From the NCBI GenBank assembly GCA_963402885.1, contig OY727096.1, forward strand, positions 8,503,501-8,567,500: 64,000 bases of DNA, given 5' to 3'. Below are positions 3,885 to 58,576 of the stretch, in pieces. Position 1 is the stretch's first letter. Each line of letters starts with the position of its first letter. The DNA is from Antedon bifida (Eukaryota; Echinodermata; Crinoidea; Comatulida; Antedonidae). The position numbers and the translations under genes are program-made. The notes beneath the pieces were generated by a model, which saw only the letters and a program-made list of their open reading frames with translations, had not been told where the DNA came from and searched no databases.

Positions 3885-4821
3885 AAACACCTGGTTTTGA
3901 TGATATTTCACCAAAGGTAGTCAAGGCAGTTGGTGATGCTATTGTAAAGCCCTTGACTTACATATTTAACGTATCTCTTCACTCCGGCTTAATACCGGAA
4001 CAGATAAAAATTGCAAAAGTAATTCCCATATACAAAAAGGGGACCGTCGTTTAGCCTCGAATTATCGCCCGATATCACTACTACCAATTTTCTCTGAAAT
4101 CTTTGAAAAGATAGTCCATTCCAGATTGTATAATTACTTTAAAACTTACAATATACTAAATGATTGGCAATACGGCTTCCGAAACAATCATTCAACCTCC
4201 CACGCTATAATTGATCTGGTCCACAAAATACTAAAGGCATTTGAAAACAAAGAGTTCGTAATTGCCACATTTATGGATTTGTCAAAGGCATTTGATATTA
4301 TTGACCACAGAATACTGAACAAGCTGTTCCACTATGGTATAAGAGGTGTTACACTAAAATGGTTCAGTAACTATTTAAAATCACGAAAGCAATATGTTTT
4401 TATAAATGGTACTTCGTCTAATATTAAGGAGACTAGTATTGGTGTTCCACAAGGGTCCGTTTTGGGACCTTTGTTGTTTCTTGTATATGTAAACGATATA
4501 TGTAACTCAAGTACACAAATTGAATTAATTAGCTTTGCCAATGATACAACAGGATTCAAGTGTGGAAATAACCTGAACGCATTGGCAAACACGATGAATG
4601 TGGAACTAGACAGAATTAATATGTGGTTCAAAGCTAATAAACTTTTATTAAACACCAGCAAAACAAATTACGTAATCTTAACTGCCCAAAGGCATATTAT
4701 TACAACCAACATTGAATTGAAAATGAATAACATTACTTTAGAACAACAAAAAAATGTAACATTTCTTGGGGTTGTAATAAATGAAAACCTTTGCTGGAAA
4801 AATCATATTAAGGCTTATTAG
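3885..4821 (+). pseudogene. LINE reverse transcriptase, catalytically altered
   Basis: From 4126 one open frame of 231 residues covers RT palm and fingers: FMDLSKAFDIIDH (motif A), GVPQGSVLGPLLFLVYVND (motif B), then FANDTT where motif C is normally F/Y-ADD-T, and FLGVVINENLCWKNHI near the end. The catalytic Asp pair is therefore reduced to Asn-Asp. Upstream, about 3885-4120, the fingers region is still legible (VIPIYKKG, NYRPISLLPIFSEIFEKI) but broken by a frameshift near 4045. The frame stops at 4821, and C-terminal coding continues out of frame. Confidence 0.85.
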
Positions 4822-7718: not shown

Positions 7719-7837
7719 TGACAGAGTATCAGTAAGTGGTGCCACTGGGAATAGGTTGAAGGAAACAGCAAATATCAATAAGTCACTCTCTGCACTTTGT
7801 AATGTCTTCTCTGCGATAACAGATCGGAGGAAAATGG
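7719..7837 (+). CDS. Kinesin motor exon: switch II / relay helix
   Basis: The acceptor is TTTACTTTTTAG. The leading T ends a split codon expected to be the Ser of 'AGS'. The frame reads [20 protein letters not shown], then [19 protein letters not shown], the canonical 'ER.s.tGA.G.RLKE...INKSLsaLg.VI.aL' segment. The Glu that normally follows DLAGS is replaced by Asp (GAC at 7720-7722), and the usual 'ALGNV' is ALCNV. The exon ends with G before GTAACT. With the next exon it makes Val, giving the expected K-M-VPYRDS sequence. Confidence 0.93.
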
Positions 7838-28800: not shown

Positions 28801-31800
28801 TGCAAAAACTCCCTAATTATGCCTGGAAAAAATAGAAATTATTTTAAAAAAATAATTTAAATATACCTAGCTAGCTGGCCTAGACATGTAAAGGTCACAT
28901 GTATGACTATGTATAGACCACAGTTTTTTGGTGATTCAATTCTTTTATTTTTTATTTACTAAAAAAAAAAAAACAAACAATCTAGCACTTTTATTAGGCT
29001 TACTCTACACACTGTTAATAAAATAGCACCTTTGAGAATGACCATCCGACTTTTACTTACAAAGTTATGTGAAATTTAAAACATGTATGTTTTGGAACTC
29101 TCTGGATTATGTTTCGGAGGAATGTGCATTCAAAGTTTATTGACGCACTGCTGGGCCGAGGAGTTATCTGCCGAGTGCGGATAACTAAAAAAATAAGATC
29201 CTGACATCCTGATACTGACTAAAAAAATAAGATCCTGACAATAACAAGTTGCGGATAACCAAAAAAAAAGTGATGATCCAATACAGTAACAAGGAGTTAT
29301 CCGCATAATCTGAGCAACAACATATTAACATGTTGAAGAGATCTGAATACGTAGAATATAGATGCGCGCTCTTTTAAATGTGATGAACTATGACCAAAAG
29401 AAATTTTGTCTTTTTTTTATTCAACTGGCCATATATAAACATATCAGTTTACTTTAAGTAAACTGATATATAAATATATCAGTTTACTTTAAGTAAACTG
29501 ATCGAATATCCTGCACATGAACAATTTAAAAAACATCTTGCGCTAAATGACATGAATGAGGTTTTACAATCAGCTTATAAATCAGGTCACAGCAATGAGA
29601 TTAGGTGCACTAGAAAAAGGAAATTTATGTTATTTTAGATCTCACCGCCGCGTTTGATACCCTTGACCACACAATCCTTCTGAATAGGCTAAAAATTTGT
29701 TATTGTATTACAGATGAAGCCCTTAGTTGGTTGGAAACCTATGTGTGTGGACGGGAGTGTAAAGTTTCTGTACTAATTTTGATAGCTTCCCACTGGAGTT
29801 TGGAGTCCCCCAAGGTTCCGTAATTAGCCCCAGTCTATTCTGCGCATACACACAACCGTTATCCAGTATTTTTAGAGATGCTGGAGTGGAGTTTCATCTA
29901 TATGAAAACCGTCCGAAAATTTATATTAACTGCAATCCCAAATCAGCTACTGATGTTGATAGAGCAATGACTTGTCTTAAGACAGGAATTAATAGATTAA
30001 AAGATTGGTGGCGTGACAACAAACAAAGATTAAATGACTGCAAAACGGAGATGATAGTGTTTTCACCCCCATGATTTAATTGTAATGCACTTAACATTGG
30101 CAGTTATTTAACTGTCAAAAGTCAGTTCCATGATTTGCTTATACTATAATGCTGATACTTTCTCTCAAATCATAGTTCCCTACAGAGATTCTGTCCTTAC
30201 GAAGATGATGCAGGAGTATGGAGGCAATGATATGATTGTGGTAAGTGTAAACTTTTTTGTGTGTGTTAATATTAGACCTCATACCAAAAAGGACAGGCAG
30301 CCAAAAGTTTAGGCTAGACTACTGTATGCACATTACAAGAAGAAACTGAATCTCGGTTTGGGCGACTTTTTCTAATTCTCACAGATTTCCTCATTTTATT
30401 GTTTCAAATTAATGAATTAAATTTCTGTATTCACCGGACGGTTTAGAATGAATGTTCTTTGCCTAATGTGTTTGTATATATAAAAGTATCTCTTCGGAGA
30501 TCATGCTTTGTGAATAAAAATACTGAAAGATGAAGGAGTACCAATTTGATGTCTGGTGCACATGCGTACACTGCCGTACCACGTCAAGAATGTCGCTATC
30601 GAATCGAATTTAAACTCTACCATGAAAGCCCCAGTGGTCTAATGGTTAGGAAATCTGCATATCAAGCAGAAGGTTTCCGTGTCTATTATTGAGAAATATA
30701 TGCCCATTCTACAGTCGACAGAACTTCTGAGGACTGTTTTCCAACCACCCATTATCGCATTTCATAGACCTCCCAACCTTCGTGGTATATTAGTCATATC
30801 TAATTTTAAGAGTGAAATTAACTCATGACAGCCAAAATTTGGGCAGTCACCTTTGCGGCAAATCTTGCAAAACTTGTTCATTGGTTGATTCTACTGAAAA
30901 ATTTAAGAGTAACCAAACTGGCCGCATTTTTCGGATAAGACAATCAATTAATTGTCTAACCAAAAACGTCATTTATCTCATATACTGTAATATTTGTGGT
31001 AAACAGTATGTCGGGGAAACAAAAGACACTCTCCGTATAAGAATGACACAACACAGATCAGCTATCAAAACATTAAAGCTTGATCAACCTGTAGCCGAAC
31101 ATTTTAATTCAGCTGGTCACTCGATTGCAAATTTCAGAGTTATTGCAATAGACCACGATGTCAAATAGAGCGACAAAACTCGCAAAAAAAAACTACTGGG
31201 AATTCTACTTAAAACCACAAAACCTTTTGGACTTAACATTTGGTACATACTCCCAGATTGGTAAAATTATTCCATTGACTAAAAAAATTTAAGTTTCAAT
31301 ATTATAACCACCATTTTAGCTGTTTTTTAGTTCCATTCCAAAATTGTTTATATCTCTACCAAGCTACCTTCTTTGTTTTCTACTCTTATTCAGTCTCCAC
31401 CCTGTCTCCTTTTGTTATATTTCTTTTATTCCTGTCCACCCAGGCAGCATTTGCCAGTTCTTATACTATGACGTTATCCAAATTCCTTCACTTGCACTGA
31501 TGAAGGGCTAGTGTTGCCTGAAAGCTCTGCTAACTTTTCTGGCTGTTTTACTTTATCGTTTTGATTTAGCTTTTCGCTTTTTTATTTGTATCTCCATTGA
31601 GATCCAGCCACTGATACCCCATTTTAGTTGAAAATATGTCCATAAAACCAAATGGCTGCTATATACAGTATTTTTCTATCAGGTATAGTCTAGGCAATCT
31701 AAAATTTAAATTTAAACAAATTGCAAACAAAGCTTTTAGTTTTTAAATTGAAGACACATGATGTGGAGATGAAATTCCACAAATCACACCTCATTTAAAC

Positions 31801-40800: not shown

Positions 40801-43800
40801 CTCGTTTGATTTTCGCGTTGCTGTTCTATTGTTAGTCAACTGAAGCTATTGTTAATTGAAAGGCTTGTTACATAACCATTACACCAAACTCGCATACACA
40901 TGCTTGTAGTGAAATTAGCGTAAATCACAAACAGCATTAAGACACACACAAATATATATATATATTTTTTTACCGGAGAAATCTTATGTAGGAGAATTTT
41001 ACAGTAGGCGGAGGTATGCACTCTCGGAGTGGCTTTCTAGTTTTATTATGATTTACATAAATGGGACATATTTTTAGTAAAGTTTTTTTTTTTTTAGATT
41101 GGCACTATTAGTCCTGCTGACTTCAATTTTGATCAAACCCTGAGTGTACTAAGATATGGTAAAATTTACTATTTCCATTATGAAATTTGATAATTTATTT
41201 TATTTACAGTGTTGTCTTGATGCTGTACATTGTAATTCCCCTATTTATTTATTTATTTTAATGCGCCCTTTCAAATATTTTTTCCTCATAAATGGCAACA
41301 AAAGGTTTGATTGTAGATATTAAGATGAACATATTTCTGCATTGATAGAGCAGCAGTGAAGGGATATGCAGCCTGAAAGAACGAAGACCAGTTTTTCTAG
41401 GCATTATCTTTATTATCATATTTGGGGTTACAGGAATACACATTTATTGTGGATTTTAATATTTCACTATATTTAAACATTTTTAGTGGACAGAGTAAAA
41501 CGCATTAGGACACATGCAATAGTGGATGAAAGCCCTACAGATAAAATGATAAGAGAGTTGAAGGAGAAGAATGCAAGATTGATAGAAGAGTTTGAAAAGA
41601 GCAAGCAAAGCGGAGAGGGTACAACAGAAACGATACAGCAAGGATTTACTGAAGCAGGTATAAGAAACTCTTTCTTTTTAGGTTATATGCATTATCATGC
41701 ATATAACCTCTTGATTCTGTCAGAATCTTTCTTTATTTATTTATTCCTTTATTTATTCTTTCCTTAGCACTATTTTGTCTGTCAATTATCTTGATATCAG
41801 TTTCATCTAGCTAAGTCAATTTTTCAGAGTATATTCCTTATAGCCAGGAATCGATGTGGTTATGTTTTCACGGGGCGCAATCAAAAATTACGCGGTCTAC
41901 GCGCGATTTAATGAAATCACGTTTGTAATCATATCTTCACAATCATGAATCACTTTTAAACAAAATTTGGTACTCATAAAATTCAGGTCATATTTCATCA
42001 TATGACAATATAATTACGTGCGTAGCGAATATAACACATGCGTACACGCGCTTAACATTTTCACAATTGTCAAAATTTATTTTCGATGAAATTAGAGTAC
42101 TTTTCAGACAATTTTAAGCGTTTAAAAAATTACCATGAGTGCTCAGATTTTTGCACGCGCACTGCGCGTTATACGTTGATGCGCACTCTTTTTGTCCGAT
42201 TTCTTTTGTACAACCTTTCTTTAATAATATCATCATATTTTATTCACTTTTCAACGCGAAATTGCGTTATACGACAACGTCAAAAGTGACAGGCTACGCA
42301 AGTATAAGTTAACAAAATGGTGAAAATATGCTAAATTTTAAAATTAATATAGATCGTTAGAATGCTCGGGAACACCTACTTTTTATTTCATTTTCTTGAA
42401 GTGTATGTATCTTATGTATGATTTATTATTAAATTAAGGGAACAAAAGTTGATTAAGTCATAATTAATTGCATATTAAATTTTAAAAAATTAATTTCGAC
42501 AATCAAACAAATTATGACATTTCTTAGGCCAAAATAACAAACTTAACATTAACTTTCTTCTTCAAAAGTTCATATATCAAAGTTAAAAGTATATAGTTTG
42601 ACAGTGCATCATTTTTTAACATTTTTAGAGATGTCATCATAGTAAAAAATTATAATTCATTGCGGTATGTAATAATCTATCTGCACCAAAGTGGTTACTG
42701 CATGGTAAGACGGATGAATTTTTAGTCAGTTGTGTATGGCTCGGTGGTCTGTGCTCGTGTCTATGGCATTCAAGGTACCGAGATCGAGTCTAACCTTGGG
42801 AAACGAAATAAGATTTTTTTTTATTATCCGTATTGTTTGTTCAAATTTATTTCTTAGTGTATAGATTATACACATGTCTTTATTATTATGTAATATAATA
42901 TATTATAACAAATGTGGTTTATGACATTATACGCAGAGGGATCTTTGATCGGATTGTGATACCGGCTATTGTATTCGCGTTAGCAAGGTCCTATCATATA
43001 TTATAAATAATTAAAGATTATGAGAAAATCAATCAATCAAAATATCTTTTAAAAATCAATTATCTTTATTTAAATCAATGCATATAACATATAATTCGTC
43101 ATAGTGACGAATTAAATCTAGTTGTCGTTAAAATTCTATTTGTAAGTTTTTCATTTCAATTATATTTTTTCAATAAATATTTTCATCGTACCACCTGTAA
43201 TCTATCTATGCATTTCCACACTCAAAATCCTAATGATAATACATGCTCTAAATTGAATAGATGAAAAAGTTATTGTAATTTTTATTAGTAGTAAGCATCA
43301 AAAAGTGACACCTGTCAGTATAATTATGGGTATTTTTTGAAGTAAGATTTCTAATGATGATGAAAGGTATTATAGCCATACAAAATGCAAAGATAAATGA
43401 AGCATCATCTACTGCTGCAGTACTGACTTAGACGTGTGTAAATTTGCTTCTGGGTTTTTCGCTGTTTTTCTACTACGTACAGTTATTTGATATTTGTCAA
43501 CATTTTTGTGAGTTGATAATTTTGTGGTAAGGTTGCCAATCTCGAAAATTCACAAAAATTAAATCACCACAAAAATAACAGCATATACAATATATTTGTT
43601 ATGTATGTACATCGCCCCTTGATACCTTGATAAGTAAATTAGGCTTTGTCGGAGTCCGGAACATAACATATAGTAATCAACAATATATTGTCTGTTATAC
43701 TAACCCTGAGGGACGGGAAAGCAAAGGTGAAGAGCCAGATAATCCTTATAAAAGAGAAAAAATTCTGACTGAAAAAGGAAGAGAATATAAGTTAGAGTTA

Positions 43801-52800: not shown

Positions 52801-55800
52801 TTTACCAGTAGCATATAATTCAAAACTGCGAAGCCATTTCTTCCACCGTTCAGCCGAAGCATGCACATCGTGTGGATCATACGCAGCGATTCCAGTGATT
52901 TCAACGTTTACAGCGGTCATCGTTACAACAGTATTAAAACAAATATATCGCCAAAAATTACAGTATTGAAACTTCTAATCACTTGTGGTTCGATATTCTC
53001 CTTAACTCATCGCCAATGTTATATCTTGTGTATATTTATTGCATCTTTCATTGTGTACAACGTATACATACAGATTACCAACCATGAGGTTTTATCGATC
53101 TCCCTTAACCCATAATGCCTCACTTCCCCTTATAGTCTCCCAATCCAGACACTACATATACTTTGTGGGGTGACAAAAATGATAGGGGTGGATGCCATCT
53201 TCAGTTTTGGGTTTTTAGGTCAGTTTATGTGGTCAAAAGGTTGTGCTCGTGTCCTGTAAGTTTGTTCTTTACCTGTGTGTTTGTGTTGTCTTCATTTATT
53301 GTAGTATTATATTTTTTCCCCTGATGTATTACTCTTCTGTGTGAGCTTCCACATCACAGGCTTGCCTTTCGTGGAGTGCCATCTTTTTTTTACATTTTGT
53401 TGTATTATTATTATAAGGTTTATTTGTTTGTAATTGTTGTAAATATAAAGAAAAAAGAGACAATTTTAAAAATTTTATGAAATTTAATATAAAAGAGTAA
53501 ATGATACGTTTGTTTTTTTATATATATATATTTCAAATTCAATACTACCTACCTTATTTAAGTACCTTAATCATTTATATTATTGTAATTGTTTATGAAA
53601 GAAAGAAAATAAATGTTTACGTTGACTTGACTTGAAAATAGAGGATTTTTATTTTATTCACGGAAAATCATCTACATCAACAGATCTATCCAAAAATACC
53701 ATTTGTGAAGATCAACTGATGTTTCATATGAGATAAACATTTTATTTTACACATAAAAACATAGGAAATGATATATACAGAAGTGCCATTTTCTCAAAAT
53801 GTTGTTTTCACATAATTTCGATAGAACATCTGTTAAGTACACACAGTTTTATAATAGACTTTTCCCAGTCTGTTGTTAATTTGTCTTTTTTATGTTGTCC
53901 GGCAGTAAGCGTTTCGATTTTTGTCAGAAAAATAGGTCAAGCATATGTATGAAACGCCAAAATATTGGTCTTTTCTATAATATTATTATATTACCTGTAA
54001 TAATGTAATATTGAGAAGTTCGGTTTTAGAAAAATCTCGAAAACAGAGACCCCCTATATGACCTAATGTTGAGATGTTTTTGTAGGGGTCGTTGAAAACA
54101 GAGACCCCTCCCCCCCTATAATGTAATTATTTAAACATTTTTAACATTTTATTTAATTTATTATTAAATTATTTTTTTTTTTTGCAGGTGGTTTAAAAAA
54201 AGAAAAATTAGATTTAAACACAAAATGTAAAGAGTTGGAATCTGAGAATAATAAACTCAAATCTGAAGTTGAGCTTCACAAAAAATTATTAAAAGATTTG
54301 GAGACTGAAGTGAAGGAGCTAAGAGGGCAAGCTGCCAAATACCAAGGAGCTAAACCGAAAGGTACTGAATAGTTTTTTTTCAAACATGTAAACCTTGACT
54401 TTAATTTTATTTCCCAAAATGCAATGTGCAAGCTTCGCCCAACATAATAAACAAATTGATGATGTATGTACATGTATGTATGTATGCACTATTGTTATTA
54501 TACAAATACTCTTCTTGATTAAATATATGTCTGTCTTTGTATAGATACAACTTCTGCTCATCTATCAGCAAGTTCATCAGTGCCAGGTAATAGTTGATTG
54601 CTAAATTCACATTAAGAGCAACAGTTGTATAGATTAAATTAGGTAAAAGAGTGCATGCGTTTTAACATAATTTATTTTTACCCACTCATGTCTACACTAT
54701 CAAGTTTGACAAAGAGTGTGATGTGCCCAAATAATGGTAGTGATATGCCCAAATATGGTAGTGATATGACATAATTATCTAACTAGATTTAATTCGTCAC
54801 TATGACGAATTGTAGGTTATATGCATTGATTTAAATAAAGATAATTGATTTTTAAAAGATATATTGATTGATTGATTTGCTCAGAATCTTTTATAATATA
54901 TGACGCAAATACAATAGCCGGTATCACAATCCGATCAAAGATCCCTCTGCGTATAATGTGATAAACCACATTTGTTGCATAATAATAAAGACATTATTTA
55001 CTTTTTATCTAGATTTCATTATAAATCATATGTATAATCTGTACACTAAGAAATAAAATTGAACAAACAATATGGATAATAAAAAAAAATCAATCTAGGT
55101 ACCTTGAATACCATAGACACGAGCACAGACCACCGAGCCATACACAACTGACTAAAAGTTGTAGAAAGATTCCTCCGTGTATTTACTATACAGTAACCAC
55201 TTTGGTGCAGATAGATTATTACATACCGCAATGAATTATAATAATATGATGACAAACTATATACTTTTAACTTTAATATATGAACATTTGAAGGAAGAAA
55301 GTTAATGTTAGGTTTGTTATTTCGGCATAAGAAAATGTCATAATTTAGTTTGATTGTCGAAATTATTTTTTTTAAATTTAATATGCAATTAATGATGACT
55401 TAATCAACTTTTGTTCTTAATTTCATAATAAATCATACATATGATACATACACTTCAAGAAAATGAAATGAAAAATAGGTGTTGACGATCTATATTAATT
55501 TTAAAATTTAGCATATTTTCACCATTTTGTTAACTTATACGTGCGTAGCCTGTCACATTTAACGTGCTCGTATAACGCAATTTCGAGTTGAAAAGTGAAT
55601 CAAATATGATGATATTATTAAAGAAAGGTTTTAAAACAGATATCGGGCAAAAAGAATGCATATTAACGTTTAACGCGCAGTGCGCTTACAAAAATATGCG
55701 CACTCATGGTAATTTTTTAAACGCTTAAAATTGCCTGAAATGTACTATAATTTCATCGAAAATAATTTTTTTTAATTTTAAGCGCGCGTACGCATGCGTT

Positions 55801-58517
55801 ATATGCGCTACGCTCATAAATGTATTGACATATGATGAAATATGACCTGAAATTTATGAGTACCAAATTTTGTTTAATTGTGATTCATGCTTGTGAAGAT
55901 ATGATTACAAACGTGATTTCGTTAAATCGCACGTAGACCGCGTAATTTTTGATTGCGCACCATGAAAACATAACCACGTCGATTCCTGGCCATAAGGAAT
56001 ATACTCTGAAAAATTGACTTAGCTAGATGAAACTGATATCAAGATAATTGACGGACAAAATAGTGCTAAAAGGAAATAATAAATAAATAAATAAAGAAAT
56101 ATTCTGACAGAATCAATAGGTTATATGCATGATAATGCATATAACCTAATAAATAAAGATTCTGACATGATAATGCATATAACCTAATTAACATCTAATC
56201 TAATGTTTTAAGTACTTGCATCGATGATACAATCAAAAGTAACTTATTTGACAGGGTAACTCAGCTATAAACAACATTACTCTGAATTCTATAATCTCCC
56301 TCTGCCTCTGGGCTAGGTGGCAGTATCATATATTTCCACATCACATTTTTTTTGTCGCATAAAGTATGATAGTGTAGACAATACCTAGAGATTTTGGCTG
56401 TAATTGTAAGCAGGTTTCTACCTGTATTTTGTTGAGAAAGCTGTTTTAAATCCAATATAGGCAAAAAGTTGTTTGATGCTATCAAGTGCAGGACAAGAAT
56501 AGAAAGTGAATTCCTCTTCATTTAACACAACAATAATTTATAAATAGTTAGCAAATTAGTTAAAATAATATCTAAAAAATAATACCTAAACATTAAAAAG
56601 GCATATTGTCATAAATTTAGTATGATGAAATCAGGTGATCAGTAATTTAAGTTGGTGACCAAAGTGCAATTTTTAATATCTTCTGGAACAATTTCCCATG
56701 TCTAGGGAAAATTACAAAAGAGGAGTTGGTATTTTCCTTCCAATGAATTAATCGTCCTCAACACCTTTCACTTGATTTTACATATTCATGAAAAGAGGGT
56801 GGGGGGAACATGTAGAATATTTAATATTTAAGGTCTTGTATCTATATGAATATGAAGTAAGAATTCCTTTCTTTTCTGTAGAAAATGAATAGAGTAGCCT
56901 TTTTCTGAATATTCTCAAGTCTAGTAATATTACAATTTTCATTTGGTGCCTACATACAACAACAATATTTTATAACTGGTAAAATCAAAGCTTTATAAAT
57001 ATTTAGCATTGCTGACCAAGTCATTACCTTTTTGCTAAACCTTGAAACTGTAATTGAAATGTTAGGACAGCATCTTCAAAATCATTAGTGTCTAATAATA
57101 TAGTTTTTCAAAAACAGTTTATTTTTAATCTAAATGTAATCTTGAATTGAAGGTTTGGTTTTACCTTCATTATTCCAGTTGGAAATTGATATATCTCTTA
57201 TTGATATTGATGCTTTTGTATGAGCTATTCTGTGTTTTTGTCATTTTCTTCAGAGAAAATATTCTCAATAAACATTTAATTCCTCTAATATATTTTTTGA
57301 AACAAATTGGTATTTTGAATGCAGGCGCGATATATCTAAAATATTTAAAAACAAATCACAGAATTTCACTCATGTGCAGTGTATTCGTGGCGCTATAGTA
57401 TCTTTGATTGTTACCGATCAATGTTTTCACAGTCACTTTTACTTCCGATCCATACGGAACTACTATAATTTATAGATGGTATAGCAATCGTTCGCCATAG
57501 AATGTTTCCATAGTACACCCTATTAAACAATTTGGGTTACCTCTGATGGCTATTGCACTATGTGTCCGATTAGGCGGTTACATATTTGTAATACATTTTC
57601 AACATAATTATGATCATTAATATTTCTTGATATTGTAACCCCTAAATATTTATAATTTTCACATTCTTCTAATGTTTCCTAATTTCCATAGCTTATTTAT
57701 ATCAACAAGCACTGACTTGGAGTGGTTAAATGTCAAACCCCAATCTTCAGCAAATTTTGCAGTTAATTCTAGCATTTGATTCATTTTAGTCAGTGTAACC
57801 AGGTTGACCTCTATCTTTGTTTCAATGATCCGTTACGTGAGGTGTTACGTAGCAATAGCCGTTACCGGTCACTTCTCGTACAAATAGTTTTTGTAACAGC
57901 TTTTATCCAGCTTTTTTGTATATCTCAGAGCAAACATAATTTCTATGTATATTTTATATGGAAATGACAATAAATGAAAATAATTTTCCACTGAAAAAAT
58001 TATATTTCCTGATAGAAATAATAATACCTACTGAGTGTGCCTAATCAAAATTTGTCATCTTCAAAACTACACTTACATGTCTATTATCATTGGATGTTAC
58101 AAATGGATGTTACAGTAGCTTAGCGCGCATCAGGGATATCCTGGTGCCACATGTCACCACTGATCACAACCTCTGAAACCATACAATTTAAAAAAAATCA
58201 GGATAGGATAATTTGGTAATATTACAAACTAATTATGTTCTAATTTTTTTTTTAAAGATGTGACGACAGACGAATTATTGGATTTAGCCAAAGAGCTTTC
58301 CAAAGAATGGAAACGGCTGGGAGTATATCTTGGCTTTACAATGGCAGACGTAGATCGCTTTGAATATGACGATAGGGGCTACTTACTTGATGCAATTTTT
58401 CGAATGCTGGAATCTTGGAATAAGAAGGCTACTGGGAAGTCCAAGCGTTCTCAATTAACAGCAGCTCTTGAAAAAGCTGATAGGAATGATTTGGCGGCTA
58501 AAGTTAAAAACCCATAA
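7719..58517 (+). CDS. Kinesin with C-terminal Death domain (3' part of gene, 7 exons)
   Basis: The join is 7719-7837, 30176-30240, 41098-41158, 41487-41657, 54188-54361, 54545-54586 and 58258-58517. After the one leading base the coding length is 891 nt, or 296 codons plus stop, with no internal stop. Intron phases read 2 (entry), 1, 0, 1, 1, 1, 1 and match at every junction. Domain order is kinesin motor from just after DLAGS to its end, kinesin-3-like neck, coiled coil, Ser/Thr linker and Death domain. Kinesins are microtubule ATPases, while Death domains assemble signalling complexes in apoptosis and innate immunity, so a cytoskeleton-linked adaptor role is an inference. The motor N-terminus is not found in the window. 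Additional symmetric phase-1 exons in the long introns cannot be excluded. Confidence 0.85.
7974..8103 (+). mobile_element. 5'-end fragment of Helentron family C
   Basis: It starts AGGTTATGCATTATCATGCA, the palindromic 5' end also seen at 41680 and, inverted, at 56147. It matches those copies through the CATCTAGCTA segment and then joins inverted family A sequence near 8104. It is a chimeric fragment. Confidence 0.65.
8104..8395 (-). mobile_element. Inverted internal fragment of Helentron family A
   Basis: GATGCGCTCTATTAAATGTG and its neighbours are the reverse complement of the family A body at about 10200-10240 and 37850-37880. No termini are present. Confidence 0.6.
8396..9376 (+). mobile_element. 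Helentron-like element, family A (copy 1)
   Basis: The 5' end is GGTTATCCGCACTTGTTATT, followed within about 40 bp by a second 5' end after a T run. The 3' end has GCGGATAAC (inverted match of the 5' terminus), the hairpin AACTCGTCAAAGTGACGAGTT split into arms AACTCGTCA and TGACGAGTT, then CTAG at 9373-9376 followed by TT. A 5' terminal repeat paired with a subterminal 3' copy and a 3' hairpin is the Helentron/Helitron2 layout. It has no coding capacity. A family B Helitron fragment lies inside. Confidence 0.75.
8998..9228 (+). mobile_element. 3' fragment of Helitron family B
   Basis: It is the reverse complement of the left ends of the copies at 14716 and 16529. It ends with the hairpin GAGCGAGCGAAGCGAGCTC, then CACCCTCTAG at 9225-9228 followed by T, a canonical Helitron 3' end (hairpin, CTRR, T target). 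It is truncated at its 5' side. Confidence 0.65.
9382..10833 (+). mobile_element. Helentron-like element, family A (copy 2, interrupted)
   Basis: It starts GGTTATTCGCAACTTAGTTG, forming a near-perfect terminal palindrome, only six bases after copy 1's CTAG. The body carries the family's CACGCGCG-rich segments and several TGACGTCAT octamer-like sites. It runs to ...CAGCACTAACATGTCAT, where a palindromic MITE begins. Its own 3' end is not present beyond that MITE. Confidence 0.7.
10834..11035. mobile_element. CGTATACG-rich palindromic MITE
   Basis: It begins CCCTTTGCAAAAAAGCC and is full of the self-complementary word CGTATACG and variants (about ten). A related copy at 16091-16268 ends with the inverse, GGCTTTTTTGCAAAGGG. 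Both junctions sit at the same point of the family A body. Frames of 60-80 codons here are repeat translations. Confidence 0.6.
11036..13100. other. About 2 kb without recognisable feature
   Basis: This is AT-rich intron sequence with no convincing frame, TIR pair or RNA gene on either strand. Confidence 0.4.
13110..13190 (-). repeat. tRNA-derived (SINE-like) fragment
   Basis: On the minus strand an A-box-like TGGTCGACTCGG (13167-13178) lies about 30 bp before a B-box-like CGTTCGATCCT (13128-13138). Length and order fit a degenerate tRNA head of a SINE. No intact cloverleaf was found. Confidence 0.4.
13227..14394. mobile_element. Non-autonomous hAT-like DNA transposon
   Basis: The left end is CAGTGGTGTATCCAGG, and the right end CCTGGATATGCCACTG is its inverse with few mismatches. 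Both ends continue into G/C runs, as in the widespread CAGTGGCGTA-type hAT termini. It is flanked by ATCGGCGG (13219-13226) and GTCGGCGG (14395-14402), an 8-bp target duplication with one mismatch. There is no transposase frame. A smaller inverted pair (TAGTTGAGCCTCAC at about 13896 and its inverse at about 14100) suggests a nested MITE. Confidence 0.8.
14403..14715. other. Short spacer without gene
   Basis: It includes several GCCTAG-rich words (CTAGGCCTA) but no frame, TIR or RNA gene that I can support. Confidence 0.4.
14716..16090 (-). mobile_element. Helitron family B, copy 1
   Basis: On the minus strand the 5' end is TCTATATATAAATTATGG (complement of 16073-16090). The 3' side ends in the GCTCGCTTCGCTCGC hairpin, but the terminal CTAG is missing at 14716, so it is slightly truncated. 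It matches 16529-19004 closely, minus the LINE there. No Rep/helicase coding is seen. Confidence 0.75.
16091..16268. mobile_element. CGTATACG-rich palindromic MITE (second copy)
   Basis: It is packed with CGTATACG-type palindromes and ends GGCTTTTTTGCAAAGGG, the inverse of the start at 10834. The sequence then resumes the family A 3' region (TATTCTTCATTTCAGG). Confidence 0.6.
16269..16394 (+). mobile_element. 3' end of Helentron family A
   Basis: Family A 3' module: GCGGATAAC, a hairpin AACTCGTC/GACGAGTT, then CTAG at 16391-16394 followed by TT. The next family A element starts immediately afterwards. Confidence 0.7.
17614..18690 (+). mobile_element. 5'-truncated LINE (CR1/L2 group), recent
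   Basis: Comparison with the uninterrupted Helitron copy (near 15770) shows insertion between CCCTTGTGT and ATAAAAGAGAG. The 3' end has GCGCTATACAAG followed by (AAT)n, typical of L2/CR1-group tails. The first ~35 bp (TATAGTATATACAGTATAAA) match the inverse of a family A module, so the 5' junction is complex. Confidence 0.8.
17653..18606 (+). CDS. LINE reverse transcriptase, C-terminal half, intact frame
   Basis: 317 codons are open, starting inside the RT and not at a true start. Motif B remnant [13 protein letters not shown] is followed by the intact catalytic motif [12 protein letters not shown] and then [17 protein letters not shown] and [18 protein letters not shown]. The C-terminal region has the common block [18 protein letters not shown] and [15 protein letters not shown]. 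No stops or frameshifts, unlike other LINE copies here, so it is relatively young. It lacks fingers and endonuclease, so it is not autonomous. Confidence 0.88.
   Translation, partial: QGSICGPVLYTIYASTLQDHISKFDISVMGYADDHSVYDSFNPNSSSSMVNTITKLQECLISINDWMKSNRLKMNSEKTEFILLGSRAQLLKCEKDHIIVCQDRIPRGSSVKYLGVNINDQLSFKNHIRDKCRTIAVNLYYIRQIRKFLSKDLCQQLVQSLVLSHIDYANALYYGLPANTLAPMKRLLHQAAKIIVRKGRYDSATNAMRSLHWLPMSHRCQFKIACLVWRSLKGSAPSYLRDILTVRNVSRSTRSSTSNYNLTIPRTKRKTFADRSFAVAGPKIWNSLPSHIKHLDDYNQFKKHLKALYFKQCYDTN
19233..20848 (+). mobile_element. Helentron-like element, family A (copy 4, near full length)
   Basis: It begins GGTTATCCGCACTTGTTATG. After a T run a second 5' palindrome (GGTTATCCGCAACTTAGTTG) follows. 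It ends with hairpin AACTCGTCAAAATGACGAGTT arms and CTAG at 20845-20848 before TT. The body shows repeated ATGACGTCATCAT sites and CG-rich CACGCGCGCG runs. At about 1.6 kb it is the best reference copy of the family in this window. No protein is encoded. Confidence 0.78.
20849..23177. mobile_element. Inverted Helentron family A fragments (large imperfect palindrome)
   Basis: 20849-21390 is in + orientation. From about 21400 the sequence turns to minus orientation (GATGCGCTCTCGTTTAAACA is the inverse of about 20468-20490). A minus-strand 3' end CTAG lies at 22596-22599 with a damaged hairpin. At 22780-23177 further inverted and direct pieces follow until the 47-bp satellite starts. It is probably several nested insertions. 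Confidence 0.65.
23178..24056 (-). repeat. 3' LTR (truncated) with 47-bp satellite array
   Basis: About 12 units of a 47-bp repeat (AACCAGTAGGTGCAACCTCC in each) occupy 23178-23740. The shared LTR end follows to CATTACA at 24056. The outer LTR end with TGTAACGAAAATCTG is absent; the array abuts Helentron sequence directly. Confidence 0.75.
24057..24069 (-). promoter_or_regulatory. Polypurine tract of the miniature LTR element
   Basis: On the minus strand AGGGAGGGGATAA directly precedes the 3' LTR start TGTAATG. This is the expected plus-strand primer site. Confidence 0.7.
24144..24287 (-). CDS. Short ORF in the LTR element interior (gag-like leader)
   Basis: 47 codons: [20 protein letters not shown], then [18 protein letters not shown] and a short hydrophobic end before TAA. 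It starts 46 nt after the PBS, where gag normally starts, and is highly charged. I recognise no domain. It could be the retained gag start of a deleted parent element, or a fortuitous frame. Confidence 0.4.
   Translation of the reverse strand: MVDLEKLLAEKVKEVCEEVKVVEYGADGKPKREKITNRTYVLKLRDS
24333..24351 (-). promoter_or_regulatory. Primer binding site, tRNA 3'-end complement
   Basis: The + strand reads AATCCCACCGCTGCCACCA, which looks like a tRNA T-arm/acceptor 3' end with CCA. On the minus strand TGGTGGCAGCGGTGGGATT follows the LTR end TTACA after one base. A match of about 18 nt is a strong PBS. Confidence 0.75.
24353..26167 (-). repeat. 5' LTR with 36-bp and 47-bp satellite arrays
   Basis: LTR termini are TGTAACG (24353) and CATTACA (26167). 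Inside, a 36-bp unit (CTCCAACAGCAACGTAACCA) repeats about 8 times at 24546-24836. A 47-bp unit repeats about 21 times at 24838-25850. A unique pyrimidine-rich segment follows, nearly identical to 23740-24056. Minus-strand frames of repeated '[12 protein letters not shown]' are translations of the 36-bp unit. Confidence 0.8.
26373..27473. mobile_element. TIR element with 24-bp inverted ends
   Basis: The left TCAGAATGCTAGAAGTAACT is matched exactly by its inverse ending at 27473 (24 bp in all). Inside both ends lie relatives of GTTTATTTGAATAAATAC, a module also found near 15220 and 17040. There is no transposase frame. Confidence 0.65.
27533..28075. mobile_element. piggyBac-like MITE with TTAA target
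   Basis: Termini are AGATGTATTGTCCCTT and its exact inverse, flanked on both sides by TTAA (27529-27532 and 28076-28079). TTAA duplication with short TIRs is characteristic of piggyBac. A second, truncated copy is at 47315. Confidence 0.75.
28309..28814. mobile_element. MITE with ~45-bp TIRs rich in CGTATTCG-type words
   Basis: The left AGGGAGTTTTCGCAACCTTA is matched by the right end (complement AGGGAGTTTTTGCAATCTTA), and the pairing continues through ACGATAACGAAAACGGATAC on both sides. It is flanked by AT-rich sequence (AATTAAT / AATTAT). No coding. Confidence 0.75.
28815..29157. other. Intron spacer without gene
   Basis: Nothing recognisable apart from an A run near 28960. Confidence 0.4.
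29158..29440 (-). mobile_element. Stacked 5' ends of Helentron family A, inverted
   Basis: Three inverted 5' termini (GAGTTATCTGCCGAGTGCGG, AACAAGTTGCGGATAACC, AAGGAGTTATCCGCATAATC) follow each other within about 150 bp, separated by A runs and GATCCTGACA. A body fragment to about 29440 follows. Confidence 0.6.
29443..29502. repeat. Tandem pair of perfect 25-nt palindromes
   Basis: 29443-29467 and 29478-29502 are identical. Each has 12-nt arms (ATCAGTTTACTT / AAGTAAACTGAT) around a central T, with a 35-bp period. They lie at the border between the Helentron piece and LINE debris. Confidence 0.85.
29503..30074 (+). pseudogene. LINE reverse transcriptase fragment, degenerate
   Basis: Readable blocks in order: [34 protein letters not shown] (motif A), [19 protein letters not shown] (motif B), then [12 protein letters not shown] where motif C should read YADD, and a final [26 protein letters not shown]. 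Frameshifts occur near 29610 and 29770. The catalytic Asp pair is destroyed. It belongs to the CR1/L2-like group and ends about 100 bp before the next kinesin exon. Confidence 0.8.
30176..30240 (+). CDS. Kinesin motor exon: VPYRDSVLT loop
   Basis: The acceptor is CAAATCATAG. TT completes Val with the previous exon's G. The frame reads [21 protein letters not shown] and ends in phase 0 before GTAAGT. This is the loop-12 'VPYRDSkLTrLLq..LGGN' block, part of the microtubule-binding face. After GGN there are fewer residues than usual (GGNDMIV for GGNsktiMI). Confidence 0.93.
30627..30690 (+). repeat. tRNA-like (SINE head) fragment
   Basis: It reads GCCCCAGTGGTCTAATGGTT with an A-box-like GTGGTCTAATGG, followed by a credible anticodon arm (TCTGC ATATCAA GCAGA). 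The T-arm/B-box is degraded (GGTTTCCGTG), so it is not a functional tRNA. Confidence 0.45.
30700..31290 (+). pseudogene. Penelope GIY-YIG endonuclease, frameshifted
   Basis: Upstream (about 30705-30805) reads [20 protein letters not shown] then NLRGILV. From 30812 a 118-residue open frame contains [20 protein letters not shown] (Cys pairs), [19 protein letters not shown] (GIY-YIG core in its YLI..YVG form, as in Penelope), [14 protein letters not shown] and [12 protein letters not shown]. After TAG at 31166-31168 the reading continues in another frame as [20 protein letters not shown]. At least two frame changes make it inactive. Confidence 0.85.
31490..31540 (+). ncRNA. Hammerhead-ribozyme-like motif in Penelope 3' region
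   Basis: CTGATGA (31497-31503), then A, stem II GGGC/GCCT closing a TAGTGTT loop, then GAAA (31520-31523) followed by GCTCTGC. Penelope-like elements are known to carry hammerhead motifs in their terminal repeats, and the wording here matches that context. I could not confirm stems I and III or the cleavage triplet. Confidence 0.6.
31750..32350. repeat. Two-copy direct repeat, ~335-bp unit
   Basis: ATTCCACAAATCA, AACATGCAAATTA and AGAACGCCAACCG occur in the same order and spacing at about 31770-31985 and 32100-32345, with diverged sequence between. It is an old tandem duplication. Confidence 0.65.
32863..32976. mobile_element. Small palindromic MITE
   Basis: GTCTACACTATCAAACTTTA at the left is the inverse of TAAAGTTTAATAGTGTAGTA at the right. 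Related halves are at about 54690 and 56340. Confidence 0.65.
33437..33597. mobile_element. Small palindromic MITE
   Basis: CAGGCTGGTTTCTCCCTGG pairs with CCAGGGGGAAACCAGCC over arms of about 25 bp. The inner part repeats GGACATTTTCC. Confidence 0.65.
34080..34440. repeat. GGCAGCCATTTTGGATTTTG tandem repeat
   Basis: Variants of GCCATTTTGGATTTTG and GAGGATGACATA recur about every 170 bp. Low complexity, no coding. Confidence 0.55.
34496..34903 (+). mobile_element. Helentron family A body fragment
   Basis: It matches the family A 3' half, including the intact TTCACCTATTCTACACTG site that serves as the empty site for Helitron B. It runs to GACGTGCGCGTGGCGTGG, where a short GGCGT repeat replaces the usual CTAG hairpin. 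Confidence 0.65.
34904..35240 (+). repeat. Five stacked 5' ends of Helentron family A
   Basis: Five successive termini of the form GTTATCCGC-loop-GCGGATAAC-TCCTTGT each have a different loop (TTAGTA, ACTTG, ACTTG, ATTGA, TATGA). They are separated by T runs or TGTATTATTA at intervals of about 65-70 bp. Only the last continues into a full body. A 104-codon + frame here is a translation of the stack. Confidence 0.8.
35241..36304 (+). mobile_element. Helentron family A body, 3'-truncated
   Basis: It continues from the stacked 5' ends through the CACGCGCG and TGACGTCATCAT segments and stops at about 36300, where inverted family A sequence begins. An internal duplication of TTTTTGTGTCTCGCGTATCT occurs at about 35265 and 35500. 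Confidence 0.65.
36305..37150 (-). mobile_element. Two inverted Helentron family A fragments
   Basis: A minus-strand 3' end lies at 36669-36672 (CTAG) with an intact hairpin AACTCGTCA/TGACGAGTT to its right. Left of it is the 5' leader/body of another inverted copy. So one copy is inserted in the leader of another. Confidence 0.65.
37151..38575 (+). mobile_element. Helentron family A, 5'-truncated, with 3' end
   Basis: Family A body in + orientation, ending GCGGATAAC, hairpin AACTCGTCAAAGTGACGAGTT arms, CTAG at 38572-38575 and TT. A 68-codon frame near 38308 is not a gene. Confidence 0.7.
38576..40034 (+). mobile_element. Helentron family A, with 3' end variant
   Basis: It begins in the TTCTTCTGTCTTTC leader rather than at a 5' palindrome. 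It ends with a diverged hairpin (ATTCGTCAAAGTGACAAATT arms) and CTAG at 40031-40034, followed by TT. Confidence 0.68.
40039..40106 (+). mobile_element. LINE/SINE 3' tail
   Basis: GAGGATCAATAAAAGTTATC followed by (TTATC)n is the common 3' tail of some invertebrate non-LTR elements. No coding is left. Confidence 0.45.
40369..41040 (+). mobile_element. Helentron-like element, family D
   Basis: The 5' end ACCTCCGCCAAGGAGGT is palindromic. The 3' end has GGCGGAGGT (inverse of the 5' end), hairpin CACTCTCGGAGTG, then CTAG at 41037-41040 followed by TT. The architecture matches families A and C though the sequence is unrelated. It lies only 57 bp before a kinesin exon. A (GTTT)n run lies near the 5' end. 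Confidence 0.75.
41098..41158 (+). CDS. Kinesin motor exon: ISPAD / final helix
   Basis: The acceptor is a T run then TAG. Phase 0 reading gives [20 protein letters not shown] plus G, with donor GTAAAA. 'hIspad.n..ETLstLrya' is the end of the motor core. 'SPAD' is typical of kinesin-3 type motors. Confidence 0.93.
41487..41657 (+). CDS. Kinesin neck exon
   Basis: The acceptor is TTTTTAG. TG completes Val (usually Ala in LRYADRAK). The frame reads [20 protein letters not shown], then [19 protein letters not shown], then [18 protein letters not shown], ending in phase 1 before GTATAAG. 'ADRAK.I.N.a.vNEdp..klIRELkEEi.rL' is the kinesin-3 neck signature. No FHA domain follows, unlike most KIF1/13-type kinesins. 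Confidence 0.92.
41680..43121 (+). mobile_element. Helentron-like element, family C
   Basis: The 5' end AGGTTATATGCATTATCATG forms a palindrome with GCATATAACC. The 3' end has GCATATAAC, hairpin AATTCGTCATAGTGACGAATT arms, then CTAG at 43118-43121 and TT. A near-full copy lies inverted at 54783-56147. It begins 22 bp after the exon donor. Non-coding apart from a tRNA-like segment. Confidence 0.78.
42718..42800 (+). repeat. tRNA-like segment inside Helentron C
   Basis: TGGCTCGGTGGTCTGTGCTC resembles an A-box region and GAGATCGAGTCTAACC a B-box. The same block, inverted, is at about 55095-55150 in the other copy, so it belongs to the element. Function as a Pol III promoter is unproven. Confidence 0.4.
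43122..43620. other. Intron spacer without gene
   Basis: Nothing recognised. AT-rich on both strands. Confidence 0.4.
43627..43978 (+). pseudogene. Retroelement gag-like remnant
   Basis: A first frame ends [21 protein letters not shown] (stop 43819). Shifted by one frame, coding continues [40 protein letters not shown] and [11 protein letters not shown] to TGA at 43976. 'LTEKG.eY.lelk.K' is a motif I associate with gag-like ORFs of LTR elements in marine invertebrates. The assignment is tentative. Confidence 0.4.
43980..44724. other. About 750 bp without supported gene
   Basis: It may include further decayed gag sequence up to about 44200. A short direct repeat (AACCTTGAGTGCAT) occurs at about 44425 and 44450. 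Confidence 0.35.
44734..46793. mobile_element. Mutator-like foldback element with 9-bp target duplication
   Basis: The ends read GAGTGTTGACAAAGTGCGAG and, inverted, GGGTAGTAACAAAGTGCGAG. Both are followed by repeated GCGAGGCA words for 100-150 bp. Flanks ATACTATAT (44725-44733 and 46794-46802) are an exact 9-bp direct repeat, the Mutator-superfamily signature. No transposase. It lies in a BEL/Pao pol remnant on its right side and carries a nested long-TIR element. Confidence 0.75.
45831..46559. mobile_element. Nested MITE with very long (~170-180 bp) TIRs
   Basis: GAATACCACACCTTAGAAG at the left matches the inverse CTAAGCTGTGGTATTC at the right. Pairing continues with modest divergence through CATAAAAAGTAACAAATAAA and TGTTCAATATTTTTGTTTCT to about 46010/46392. 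Confidence 0.75.
46803..47311 (-). pseudogene. BEL/Pao reverse transcriptase fragment
   Basis: Minus-strand reading from 47291: [20 protein letters not shown] and [17 protein letters not shown], the highly typical BEL/Pao '[11 protein letters not shown].G.SLNd.LlqGPDL' block. Further left, with frame changes, [34 protein letters not shown] and the catalytic YVDDP are readable. It is interrupted at 46794-46802 by the Mutator-like element and at 47311 by a piggyBac-like fragment. Confidence 0.85.
47315..47567. mobile_element. Truncated copy of the piggyBac-like MITE
   Basis: After TTAA (47311-47314) it starts AGATGTATTGTCCCTTTGAC and follows the inverse of 27828-28075 closely to about 47567, where the match stops inside the element. 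Confidence 0.7.
47570..48140 (-). pseudogene. BEL/Pao protease and zinc-knuckle region
   Basis: From right to left: [20 protein letters not shown] then [16 protein letters not shown], the Cys/His knuckles usual before the Pao protease. Then a protease-like [20 protein letters not shown] with the D-x-x-S-N-S..I form. Frame changes and stops are present. Confidence 0.72.
48141..49379 (-). pseudogene. BEL/Pao gag region, broken
   Basis: Right to left: an acidic N-terminal block ([20 protein letters not shown]), a Thr/Pro-rich stretch with at least one frameshift near 48990, and a Pao gag-like segment [40 protein letters not shown]. Continuity between 48477 and 48685 is not clear. Confidence 0.6.
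49400..50040 (+). pseudogene. BEL/Pao integrase fragment, opposite orientation
   Basis: The + strand reads [20 protein letters not shown], then shifted [20 protein letters not shown] and [20 protein letters not shown]. 'L.PFlD..GiLRVGGRl..a' is the hallmark just before the BEL/Pao integrase zinc finger. A frameshifted remainder includes [18 protein letters not shown]. The catalytic core is not seen. It abuts the gag region head-to-head at about 49380, implying an inversion. Confidence 0.78.
50344..50890 (-). pseudogene. LINE RT C-terminal fragment, degenerate
   Basis: Minus strand: [18 protein letters not shown] (catalytic motif intact), stop, [20 protein letters not shown]. After frameshifts, [20 protein letters not shown] and [17 protein letters not shown] are readable. 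The tail AATCAAATCAAATCAC near 50380-50360 fits a LINE 3' repeat. Confidence 0.7.
50957..51094 (-). repeat. 3' LTR of the Gypsy-like element
   Basis: TGTTATATCTTGTGTATATT ... CCAGACACTACA. It differs from the other LTR at only a few positions and a small indel near the CCCTTAGTCTCC segment. Confidence 0.85.
51130..51447 (-). pseudogene. Gypsy-like RT N-terminal part, truncated
   Basis: The frame reads [60 protein letters not shown] and [20 protein letters not shown] then PEKYQ. These are RT fingers and motif A (the D of '[11 protein letters not shown]'). After PEKYQ the expected catalytic Y/F-x-DD block is missing and an unrelated 14-residue end follows, so a deletion joins here. It overlaps the gag-pro frame end in another frame. 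Confidence 0.85.
51383..52771 (-). CDS. Gypsy-like gag-protease ORF
   Basis: 462 open codons. The gag portion has [20 protein letters not shown], the usual retrotransposon gag helix. Two zinc knuckles follow: [15 protein letters not shown] and [14 protein letters not shown]. Then an acidic linker and the protease active site [15 protein letters not shown]. Near the C-terminus comes [20 protein letters not shown], the protease-RT connector, and [13 protein letters not shown] where RT normally continues 'SPWaSPiV'. A frameshift then separates it from RT. The long open frame suggests fairly recent activity. Confidence 0.9.
   Translation of the reverse strand: MLLHCAGLAVQDIYDCLTEENGTDEYDVVKTLNKQFAMKTNVPYERYCFRKLTQGDDETIHQFINSLRQQAAKCEFDDANVDELIRDHVIENCKSNRLRIKLLEKGNTLKLTNLKAIASTFEMSEKRAKEMSQEVIGVETTTNMNAVRNERWSRSSTTSRNRYQAGNSSGRPNRTSKSKSNDRQDNRKCFRCGREGHLAKDKCCPARDKKCTKCKMLGHFAVCCKTKVGKDKKSSDISNVQNGSEDDDYAFGIQNNNSKTTKINVCMDVHKVEMIVDSGATVNIIDQYLWQQLKSKKIKCKSELTNRKLYAYGSEKPLELLGKFTTNMSIFQDTGNNTDPKITALLEGDTAMKLGVLNIVIPQGINSVQDKYTQVFEGIGKLKDYKLHLFIDEQVTPVVQSMYRVPFSLKDKVSDKLDELEPLDIIERVDEPSDWVSLVHSSAKTKWGYTPLRRYEAGQPSS
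52720..52920 (-). pseudogene. Gag N-terminus of the Gypsy-like element
   Basis: The frame [40 protein letters not shown] ends with a stop after overlapping the gag-pro frame. 'W..W...Fe.ya.a.g' is the standard gag start, so gag is split by one frameshift at about 52750-52770. The ATG at 52918-52920 is the likely true start. Confidence 0.8.
53017..53156 (-). repeat. 5' LTR of the Gypsy-like element
   Basis: Same termini as the 3' LTR. The adjacent PBS candidate lies at 53016-53000 on the minus strand. Confidence 0.85.
53250..53640 (+). mobile_element. LINE 3' UTR and tail
   Basis: The end AAATAAATGTTTACGTTGAC then TTGACTTGA is a typical repeated LINE tail. No coding remains. It interrupts a segment that is otherwise shared with 62580-62880. 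Confidence 0.5.
53640..54115. repeat. Segment duplicated at 62635-63110
   Basis: It shares AAAATCATCTACATCAACAG, TTTTCTCAAAATGTTGTTTT and the following GAAAACAGAGACC hairpin units with the right-hand copy. Together with 50880-50956 and 53157-53250 it forms one old repeat interrupted by the Gypsy element and the LINE tail. Confidence 0.65.
54188..54361 (+). CDS. Kinesin coiled-coil exon
   Basis: The acceptor is TTTGCAG. GT completes Gly. The frame reads [40 protein letters not shown] and [17 protein letters not shown], ending in phase 1 before GTACTG. Regular Leu/Val/Ile spacing ([20 protein letters not shown]) predicts a two- to three-turn parallel coiled coil, probably for dimerisation. It has entry and exit phase 1, a symmetric exon. 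Confidence 0.88.
54545..54586 (+). CDS. Kinesin linker micro-exon
   Basis: 42 nt, phase 1-1. AT completes Asp and the exon reads [14 protein letters not shown]. The acceptor is TTTGTATAG and the donor GTAATAG. It is a Ser/Thr-rich flexible linker between coiled coil and Death domain. Being symmetric, it could be skipped without frame loss. Support comes from splice signals and frame only, so it is weaker than the others. Confidence 0.68.
54783..56147 (-). mobile_element. Helentron-like element, family C (inverted copy)
   Basis: The minus-strand 3' end CTAG is at 54783-54786 with hairpin arms AATTCGTCA/TGACGAATT. The 5' palindrome GGTTATATGCATGATAATGC ends at 56147. It aligns in inverse to 41680-43121 almost throughout, including the tRNA-like block. 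A second, partial 5' end (TGATAATGCATATAACC) follows at about 56167-56187. Confidence 0.78.
56190..56690. other. Intron spacer
   Basis: It contains a half-copy of the small palindromic MITE near 56330-56385 (CATAAAGTATGATAGTGTAG). No gene was seen. Confidence 0.4.
56691..57790 (-). pseudogene. LINE RT/thumb region, heavily degenerate
   Basis: Minus strand, from right: [20 protein letters not shown], then (shifted) [20 protein letters not shown] and [33 protein letters not shown]. Further left are fragments like [13 protein letters not shown]. The order and motifs fit the RT C-terminal/thumb half of a LINE. Many frameshifts. Confidence 0.65.
57791..58257 (+). other. End of the last kinesin intron
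   Basis: Nothing recognisable until the T run and TTTAAAG acceptor at 58251-58257. Confidence 0.45.
58258..58517 (+). CDS. Death-domain exon, C-terminus of the kinesin gene
   Basis: The acceptor is TTTTTAAAG. AT completes Asp in phase 1. The frame reads [85 protein letters not shown], stop at 58515-58517. All six helices of a Death domain are visible: LLdLAkeLs.eWk.La..LGft, a D-V-x-x-F/I turn, the conserved 'ML.sWnkk' helix, L..AL.k..R.DLA. The ~85-residue size is normal for the family, whose role is homotypic assembly of signalling complexes. One exon encodes the whole domain. Confidence 0.93.
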
Positions 58518-58570: not shown

Positions 58571-58576
58571 AATAAA
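58571..58576 (+). promoter_or_regulatory. Poly(A) signal of the kinesin-Death gene
   Basis: AATAAA lies 53 bp after the stop codon, in AAATAAATAG. It is the nearest signal and consistent with the Death-domain exon being the last one. Confidence 0.55.

Follow-up and report, generated by a model that had tools for sequence, protein, structure and literature searches.

Several kinesins, among them Costal-2, VAB-8, and Vik1/Cik1, are non-motor proteins, and to our knowledge none of these, nor KIF26A, carries a Death domain. KIF26A is described as a non-motor kinesin used in signaling (PMC10585591). KLP-6 of C. elegans serves cilia and mitochondrial transport and is held in a folded, closed state by CC1, FHA, CC2, MBS, and MATH (PMC9314371). 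Kinesins and Death-domain proteins are named apart in an excerpt of PMC3750612, and among the dispensable genes of amphioxus, Death domains and, separately, kinesin GO terms are enriched, with no fusion in the excerpted text (PMC12373286).

The locus described here overlaps a 64,000-nucleotide stretch of the crinoid Antedon bifida (the window, C9:8503501-8567500 of a 315.6-Mb genome), which was analyzed together with 60 kb upstream and 40 kb downstream. It holds a predicted kinesin gene, termed copy A, followed by a second kinesin gene, copy B. At the level of its sequence, copy A is a pseudokinesin, i.e., an intact reading frame with a destroyed ATP site; its gene structure and motif losses are evident in the DNA itself. 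According to a preliminary description of the window, no animal kinesin with a Death domain is known, and none was found among the proteins or the open-license PubMed Central papers searched.

Gene Structure of Copy A

The seven exons of copy A in the window had been read as one protein, and they do form a single open frame with matching phases, which totals 891 nt without a stop over 7720-58517 (Table 1). Their borders carry AG acceptors and GT donors, and the three junctions proposed for the tail (41657/54188, 54361/54545, and 54586/58258) are exact as coordinates in the DNA. Pfam places two families above their curated cut-offs in the 296-aa join: (i) Kinesin, with an E value of 8.9e-23 over residues 2-88 and profile positions 237-327, the C-terminal part, and (ii) Death, with an E value of 8.1e-10 over residues 216-295 and 39.1 bits against a cut-off of 22.6. 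The top solved-structure matches of the join are KIF13B, OSM-3, and KIF1A.

Seven more exons on the same strand lie upstream of the window and encode the N-terminal half of the motor. The full predicted gene thus has 14 exons over about 113 kb, with a 1680-nt frame from ATG to TAA (559 codons plus the stop) and a complete kinesin motor (Pfam E 3.9e-70). Chance open frames can be ruled out as its source, as both domains score far over cut-off and the exon borders agree with those of copy B. Exon 11 ends in phase 1 at the same point as the neck exon of copy B, and omission of exon 13 leaves the frame open because the flanking junctions are phase 1.

Table 1. Predicted exons and tail signals of copy A. 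Exons 1-7 are given in C9 coordinates and all other features in window coordinates.
Feature	Position	Strand	Remarks
Exon 1	C9:8449183-8449242	+	
Exon 2	C9:8459859-8460053	+	
Exon 3	C9:8471765-8471897	+	carries P-loop
Exon 4	C9:8472841-8472929	+	
Exon 5	C9:8478309-8478429	+	
Exon 6	C9:8485907-8485988	+	
Exon 7	C9:8486514-8486621	+	
Exon 8	7719..7837	+	motor after switch II; 15 nt shorter than in copy B
Exon 9	30176..30240	+	6 nt shorter than in copy B
Exon 10	41098..41158	+	within kinesin frame
Exon 11	41487..41657	+	kinesin-3 neck linker and neck coil
Exon 12	54188..54361	+	coiled coil
Exon 12 read-through	54362..54372	+	GTE, then TAG stop at 54370-54372
AATAAA with GT-rich DNA	54446..54451	+	74 nt after the GTE stop; possible short-form polyadenylation site
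Exon 13	54545..54586	+	Ser/Thr linker, 42 nt; weakest exon
Exon 14	58258..58517	+	Death domain and stop codon TAA
AATAAA with GT-rich DNA	58571..58576	+	54 nt past the Death stop; fits a terminal exon

Twelve of the 13 introns have GT…AG ends. The first has the donor ATATCCTT, a branch-like TTCTTAAC, and an AC end, all of which recur in copy B, and we take the first intron of both copies to be of the U12-type AT-AC class on the basis of these features. The A. mediterranea protein P0001 is annotated without the exon that precedes the AT-AC intron at C9:8449242 and begins inside exon 2; the unusual intron may have led to this gap in the annotation.

The introns also harbor elements of other kinds. 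RVT_1 reverse-transcriptase frames are found on the plus strand at 3970-4818 (E 6.9e-29) and 17650-18603 (E 2.1e-12). A 472-residue minus-strand frame at 51386-52801, in the intron preceding the coil exon, has a zf-CCHC zinc knuckle barely over cut-off and is perhaps a gag-like element. At 23179-25855, inside intron 8, a 36-bp array is flanked by two large tandem arrays of a 47-bp unit (94-96% matches), and GC skew is strong. Dispersed short repeats at 32857-32971, 54689-54778, and 56327-56380 recur several times in the C10 sequence analyzed as well as close to copy B. No RNA family match was found in the window.

Descent from a KIF28-Type Gene

Copy B begins on the same strand at window coordinate 67973, 4 kb past the window end. 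It has the same exon borders as copy A with intact nucleotide motifs, and its motor and neck are identical at 380 of 383 aligned positions to those of P0001, the KIF28 of Antedon mediterranea. The motors of copies A and B share 276 of 394 residues (70%), and we read copy A, from sequence, as the product of a tandem duplication of a kinesin-3 gene of the KIF28/KLP-6 type. The kinesin-3 class first assigned to the window exons is therefore retained and can be narrowed to the KIF28/KLP-6 branch, as motor and neck are most like KIF28 and the exon borders are held in common; the two names are treated as one branch on the basis of database entries, in which KIF28P is also termed kinesin-like protein 6. 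With respect to the age of the duplication relative to Anneissia, outgroup site patterns number five that join A with B, eight that join B with Anneissia and A with Diadema, and none for the third grouping. The intron flanks of the two copies are 50-84% alike in gapped alignments, a figure that has no chance level beside it and is unused for dating.

Behind the neck, the frames of copy B resemble, by eye, the FHA domain and later kinesin-3 tail of P0001. P0001 itself has an FHA match in Pfam. One FHA exon of copy B, 60 residues long, returns no family when taken alone. Copy A had been described as devoid of FHA, which agrees with the Pfam results and with the comparison of the two copies: none of the FHA or later tail exons of copy B has a counterpart in the A region at E ≤ 0.01 (plus strand, frames of at least 20 residues). 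No FHA domain was found hidden in the introns of copy A at the same threshold and over the same frames.

Coiled Coil and Death Domain

As initially described, the coiled coil and the Death domain stand in phase behind the neck, a placement on which exon borders and open frame agree. The neck exon, the coil exon, and the Death exon are compatible with one another in phase 1, as exon shuffling requires. The coil exon has no detected counterpart in copy B and a single genomic relative at E ≤ 0.01, on the minus strand at C10:29602013-29602174 (63% protein identity); after these two loci, the next match is on C11 with an E value of 0.27. A two-exon join of the C10 relative matches only a sub-threshold coil-like family in Pfam, and no Death match better than E 1.7 occurs in 50 kb around it.

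Exon 14 has a phase-1 acceptor, a stop, and an AATAAA, and its nearest solved domains are those of PIDD and RIPK1. The six top matches of its single-sequence fold are death domains, none at E ≤ 0.001, and the fold confidence (mean pLDDT 66.9) is too low to lean on. At least 150 Death matches are listed in the genome; the closest relatives of exon 14 are on C10 (51-56% identical), with less similar ones on C7, C9, C10, and C13. In four of the five relatives sampled, we read a phase-1 acceptor at about the same point; the fifth, L035, has an open frame upstream there. Both tail exons look coding: over 59 codons, the coil and its C10 relative give an omega of 0.40, and exon 14 compared with five Death relatives gives 0.17-0.40, with large Ks.

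The closest of the sampled Death relatives, L034, adjoins two exons with sub-threshold COR-A matches (E 4.1e-7 and 0.0054) that are consecutive in the profile, and its gene is probably ROCO-like. This adjacency suggests an expansion of ROCO-like Death proteins in the crinoid genome. The related Death exons form dense minus-strand clusters at C7:11-18 Mb and C10:11-16 Mb, several with equal scores (loci L034 and L038).

Whether the Death exon is joined to the kinesin hinges on the end of exon 12. The frame read through its donor reaches GTE and a stop codon, and this read-through is common to exon 12 and its C10 relative with one synonymous change, while DNA similarity between the two extends just beyond the stop. 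The donor itself is weak (score 55.0), as is that of the neighboring exon 11 (54.7). A less likely alternative to the joined form follows from this continuity of coil homology: the pseudokinesin is real and ends after the coil, and the Death exon is part of a different transcript or an orphan exon of the large Death family. The AATAAA with GT-rich DNA behind the stop fits such an end, although a single AATAAA is a weak signal because 101 copies occur on the plus strand of the window, and Death exons are very common in the genome. Against it stands the Death exon itself, which looks terminal and so needs an upstream plus-strand exon. When the interval between 41.6 and 58.2 kb is compared with the Death and coil loci sampled (all 21 were present), only exon 12 gives a coding-like match, the other matches in this interval being read as repeat-like, and no separate upstream exons for a Death gene were found there; moreover, the phase of the Death exon fits the kinesin gene.

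Two protein ends are possible, a short one without and a long one with the Death domain, because of the GTE stop and the two AATAAA sites. The chances of the long form appear about even. From the sequence, a kinesin-Death fusion is plausible, with a reservation for the read-through stop that exon 12 has in common with its one clear paralog.

Such a fusion would stand alone in the material searched. By eye, no second kinesin-Death gene is present among the kinesin and Death matches listed for the genome, in which the next closest kinesin-Death exon pair is about 138 kb apart; others could be missed because both sets of matches are lower bounds, the kinesin set containing none of copy A's own exons. 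Searches with the tail (residues 400-559 of the full protein) matched 0 of 1340 candidates of 307-978 residues at E ≤ 0.01, and the same tail in the shorter join matched 0 of 683 candidates of 163-518 residues at E ≤ 10, in a protein database that includes A. mediterranea proteins. The precomputed Pfam lines of the best 120 of 906 relatives contain no Death domain.

Loss of the ATP Site and Selection on Copy A

All three nucleotide motifs of copy A are ruined. In the P-loop, for which the pattern is GxxxxGK[ST], GQTGSGKS has become GQDSAENL, with all six residues of an 18-nt stretch replaced; switch I has a 10-residue in-frame deletion that leaves TGRSH where NxxSSR[SA]H is expected; and in switch II, DLAGSE reads DLALSD. 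Copy A thus lacks the lysine and serine of the P-loop, the loop of switch I, and the glycine of switch II; the best 120 of 906 relatives all keep the three motifs. Of the 142 columns at least 95% conserved in these relatives, 98 are retained in copy A as against 141 in copy B. The losses of copy A concentrate in the three motifs, where they affect 17 of 25 columns, compared with 27 of 117 in the rest (Fisher p 2.8e-5), and 8 of the 16 A-B differences in exon 3 lie inside the P-loop, 18 of its 133 nt (p 1.6e-4), both tests having been set up after the losses had been noticed. In the stretches that face the microtubule, the loss of conserved columns (4 of 15 and 2 of 7) is about as frequent as elsewhere, which gives no special sign that microtubule binding was retained. 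The microtubule-based transport envisaged in the preliminary description finds no support in the three nucleotide motifs, which lie in exons upstream of those it had considered; with P-loop, switch I, and switch II destroyed, ATP-driven movement or transport by copy A is very unlikely.

The two copies differ with Ks 0.40, Ka 0.20, and omega 0.50 (bootstrap 0.37-0.68). When polarized with the Anneissia protein, 97 of 118 amino acid differences fall on A, 7 on B, and 14 are unplaced, which by arithmetic puts omega on the A branch near 0.9; selection there would be relaxed or adaptive, and strong purifying selection is not indicated. At this Ks, the 394 aligned motor codons of copy A contain no stop. 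Neutral runs (500 each) remained stop-free in 0.2% of cases at a distance of 0.2 (half Ks), 0.4% at 0.15, 0.8% at 0.1, and 10.4% at 0.05. All five exon-length differences between the copies are multiples of three; in exon 8, the gap pieces of the DNA alignment are not all so, and the net 15 nt is. All 10 homologous GT donors and all 9 AG acceptors are retained in copy A, as is the AT-AC intron. Donor scores are lower in A than in B in seven of ten exons, higher in two, and equal in one.

These data bear on a further alternative, which we consider improbable, that copy A is a recently dead pseudogene with a leftover open frame and a Death exon that merely happens to lie downstream. The near-neutral omega, the weaker donors, the lost catalytic motifs, and the reverse-transcriptase frames inside the introns are what such a gene might display, and neither the best 120 of 906 proteins nor the search with the tail yielded an annotated orthologue. 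Yet the frame has no stops, its length changes are in-frame on balance, its splice sites are kept, and its losses cluster in the ATP motifs rather than being spread out. Neutral decay over the entire time since the duplication is unlikely on the simulated frequencies; a recent death is less so, given the 10.4% of stop-free runs at a distance of 0.05. The best reading of the sequence is that copy A remained protein-coding through most of its history while its constraints changed. That it is instead an active kinesin-3 moving Death-domain cargo along microtubules is scarcely credible and is rejected on the ruined motifs, even though the motor match is full-length and the neck is kept.

Proposed Function and Relation to Known Proteins

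The explanation we prefer, tentatively and at somewhat short of even confidence, is that copy A is an intact KIF28/KLP-6 duplicate that serves as a non-motile kinesin-fold scaffold with a coil and Death tail. At the level of its sequence, this duplicate has lost ATP binding and hydrolysis together with the FHA domain and the later tail of the parent, and downstream of the neck it has a coil exon and a terminal Death exon, both of other origin. We infer that the gene is expressed with its Death exon spliced in, binds microtubules, and has Death partners. The kinesin head may place the protein statically on microtubules or cilia; alternatively, it may be anchored there by pairing, via the neck, with copy B, the active KIF28 sister. 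The coil would dimerize the protein, and the Death domain, through Death-Death contacts, would gather partners at the anchored place.

A more specific version is doubtful on present evidence: selection would have made a KIF28 copy an ATP-free scaffold, and exon shuffling would have added the dimerizing coil and the Death domain to yield a platform anchored to microtubules or cilia. If copy A is indeed a scaffold, the eight changes in the 18-nt P-loop, with all six residues replaced, would be the mark of selection.

The platform would then be a cytoskeletal adaptor for immunity or cell death, of a type that the sources searched do not describe. An expressed fusion would (i) join two kinds of protein unreported together in those sources, (ii) show how one member of a tandem pair can turn from a motor into a signaling scaffold, the adjoining intact parent being a ready control, and (iii) tie the crinoid expansion of Death domains to the cytoskeleton. 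Should the Death exon not be joined to the gene, an ATPase-dead KIF28 adjacent to an intact parent would still make a useful natural experiment.

Copy A resembles three groups of known proteins, each in part. With KIF28/KLP-6 it shares, by descent, the motor, the neck, the exon borders, and the first intron, but its P-loop, switch I, and switch II are not usable. The CC1-FHA-CC2-MBS-MATH tail, which inhibits KLP-6 by folding back, is missing, and in its place stand another coil and, perhaps, a Death domain. Like KIF26A and the other non-motor kinesins, it combines a kinesin fold without motor activity with a signaling or scaffold role, which for copy A is a proposed one; those proteins, however, belong to other kinesin families, whereas copy A derives by tandem duplication from a KIF28 whose motifs are intact. 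Its Death domain is of normal length in Pfam and is related to the phase-1 Death exons of the genome, but unlike that of the probably ROCO-like L034 gene, it stands behind a kinesin neck.
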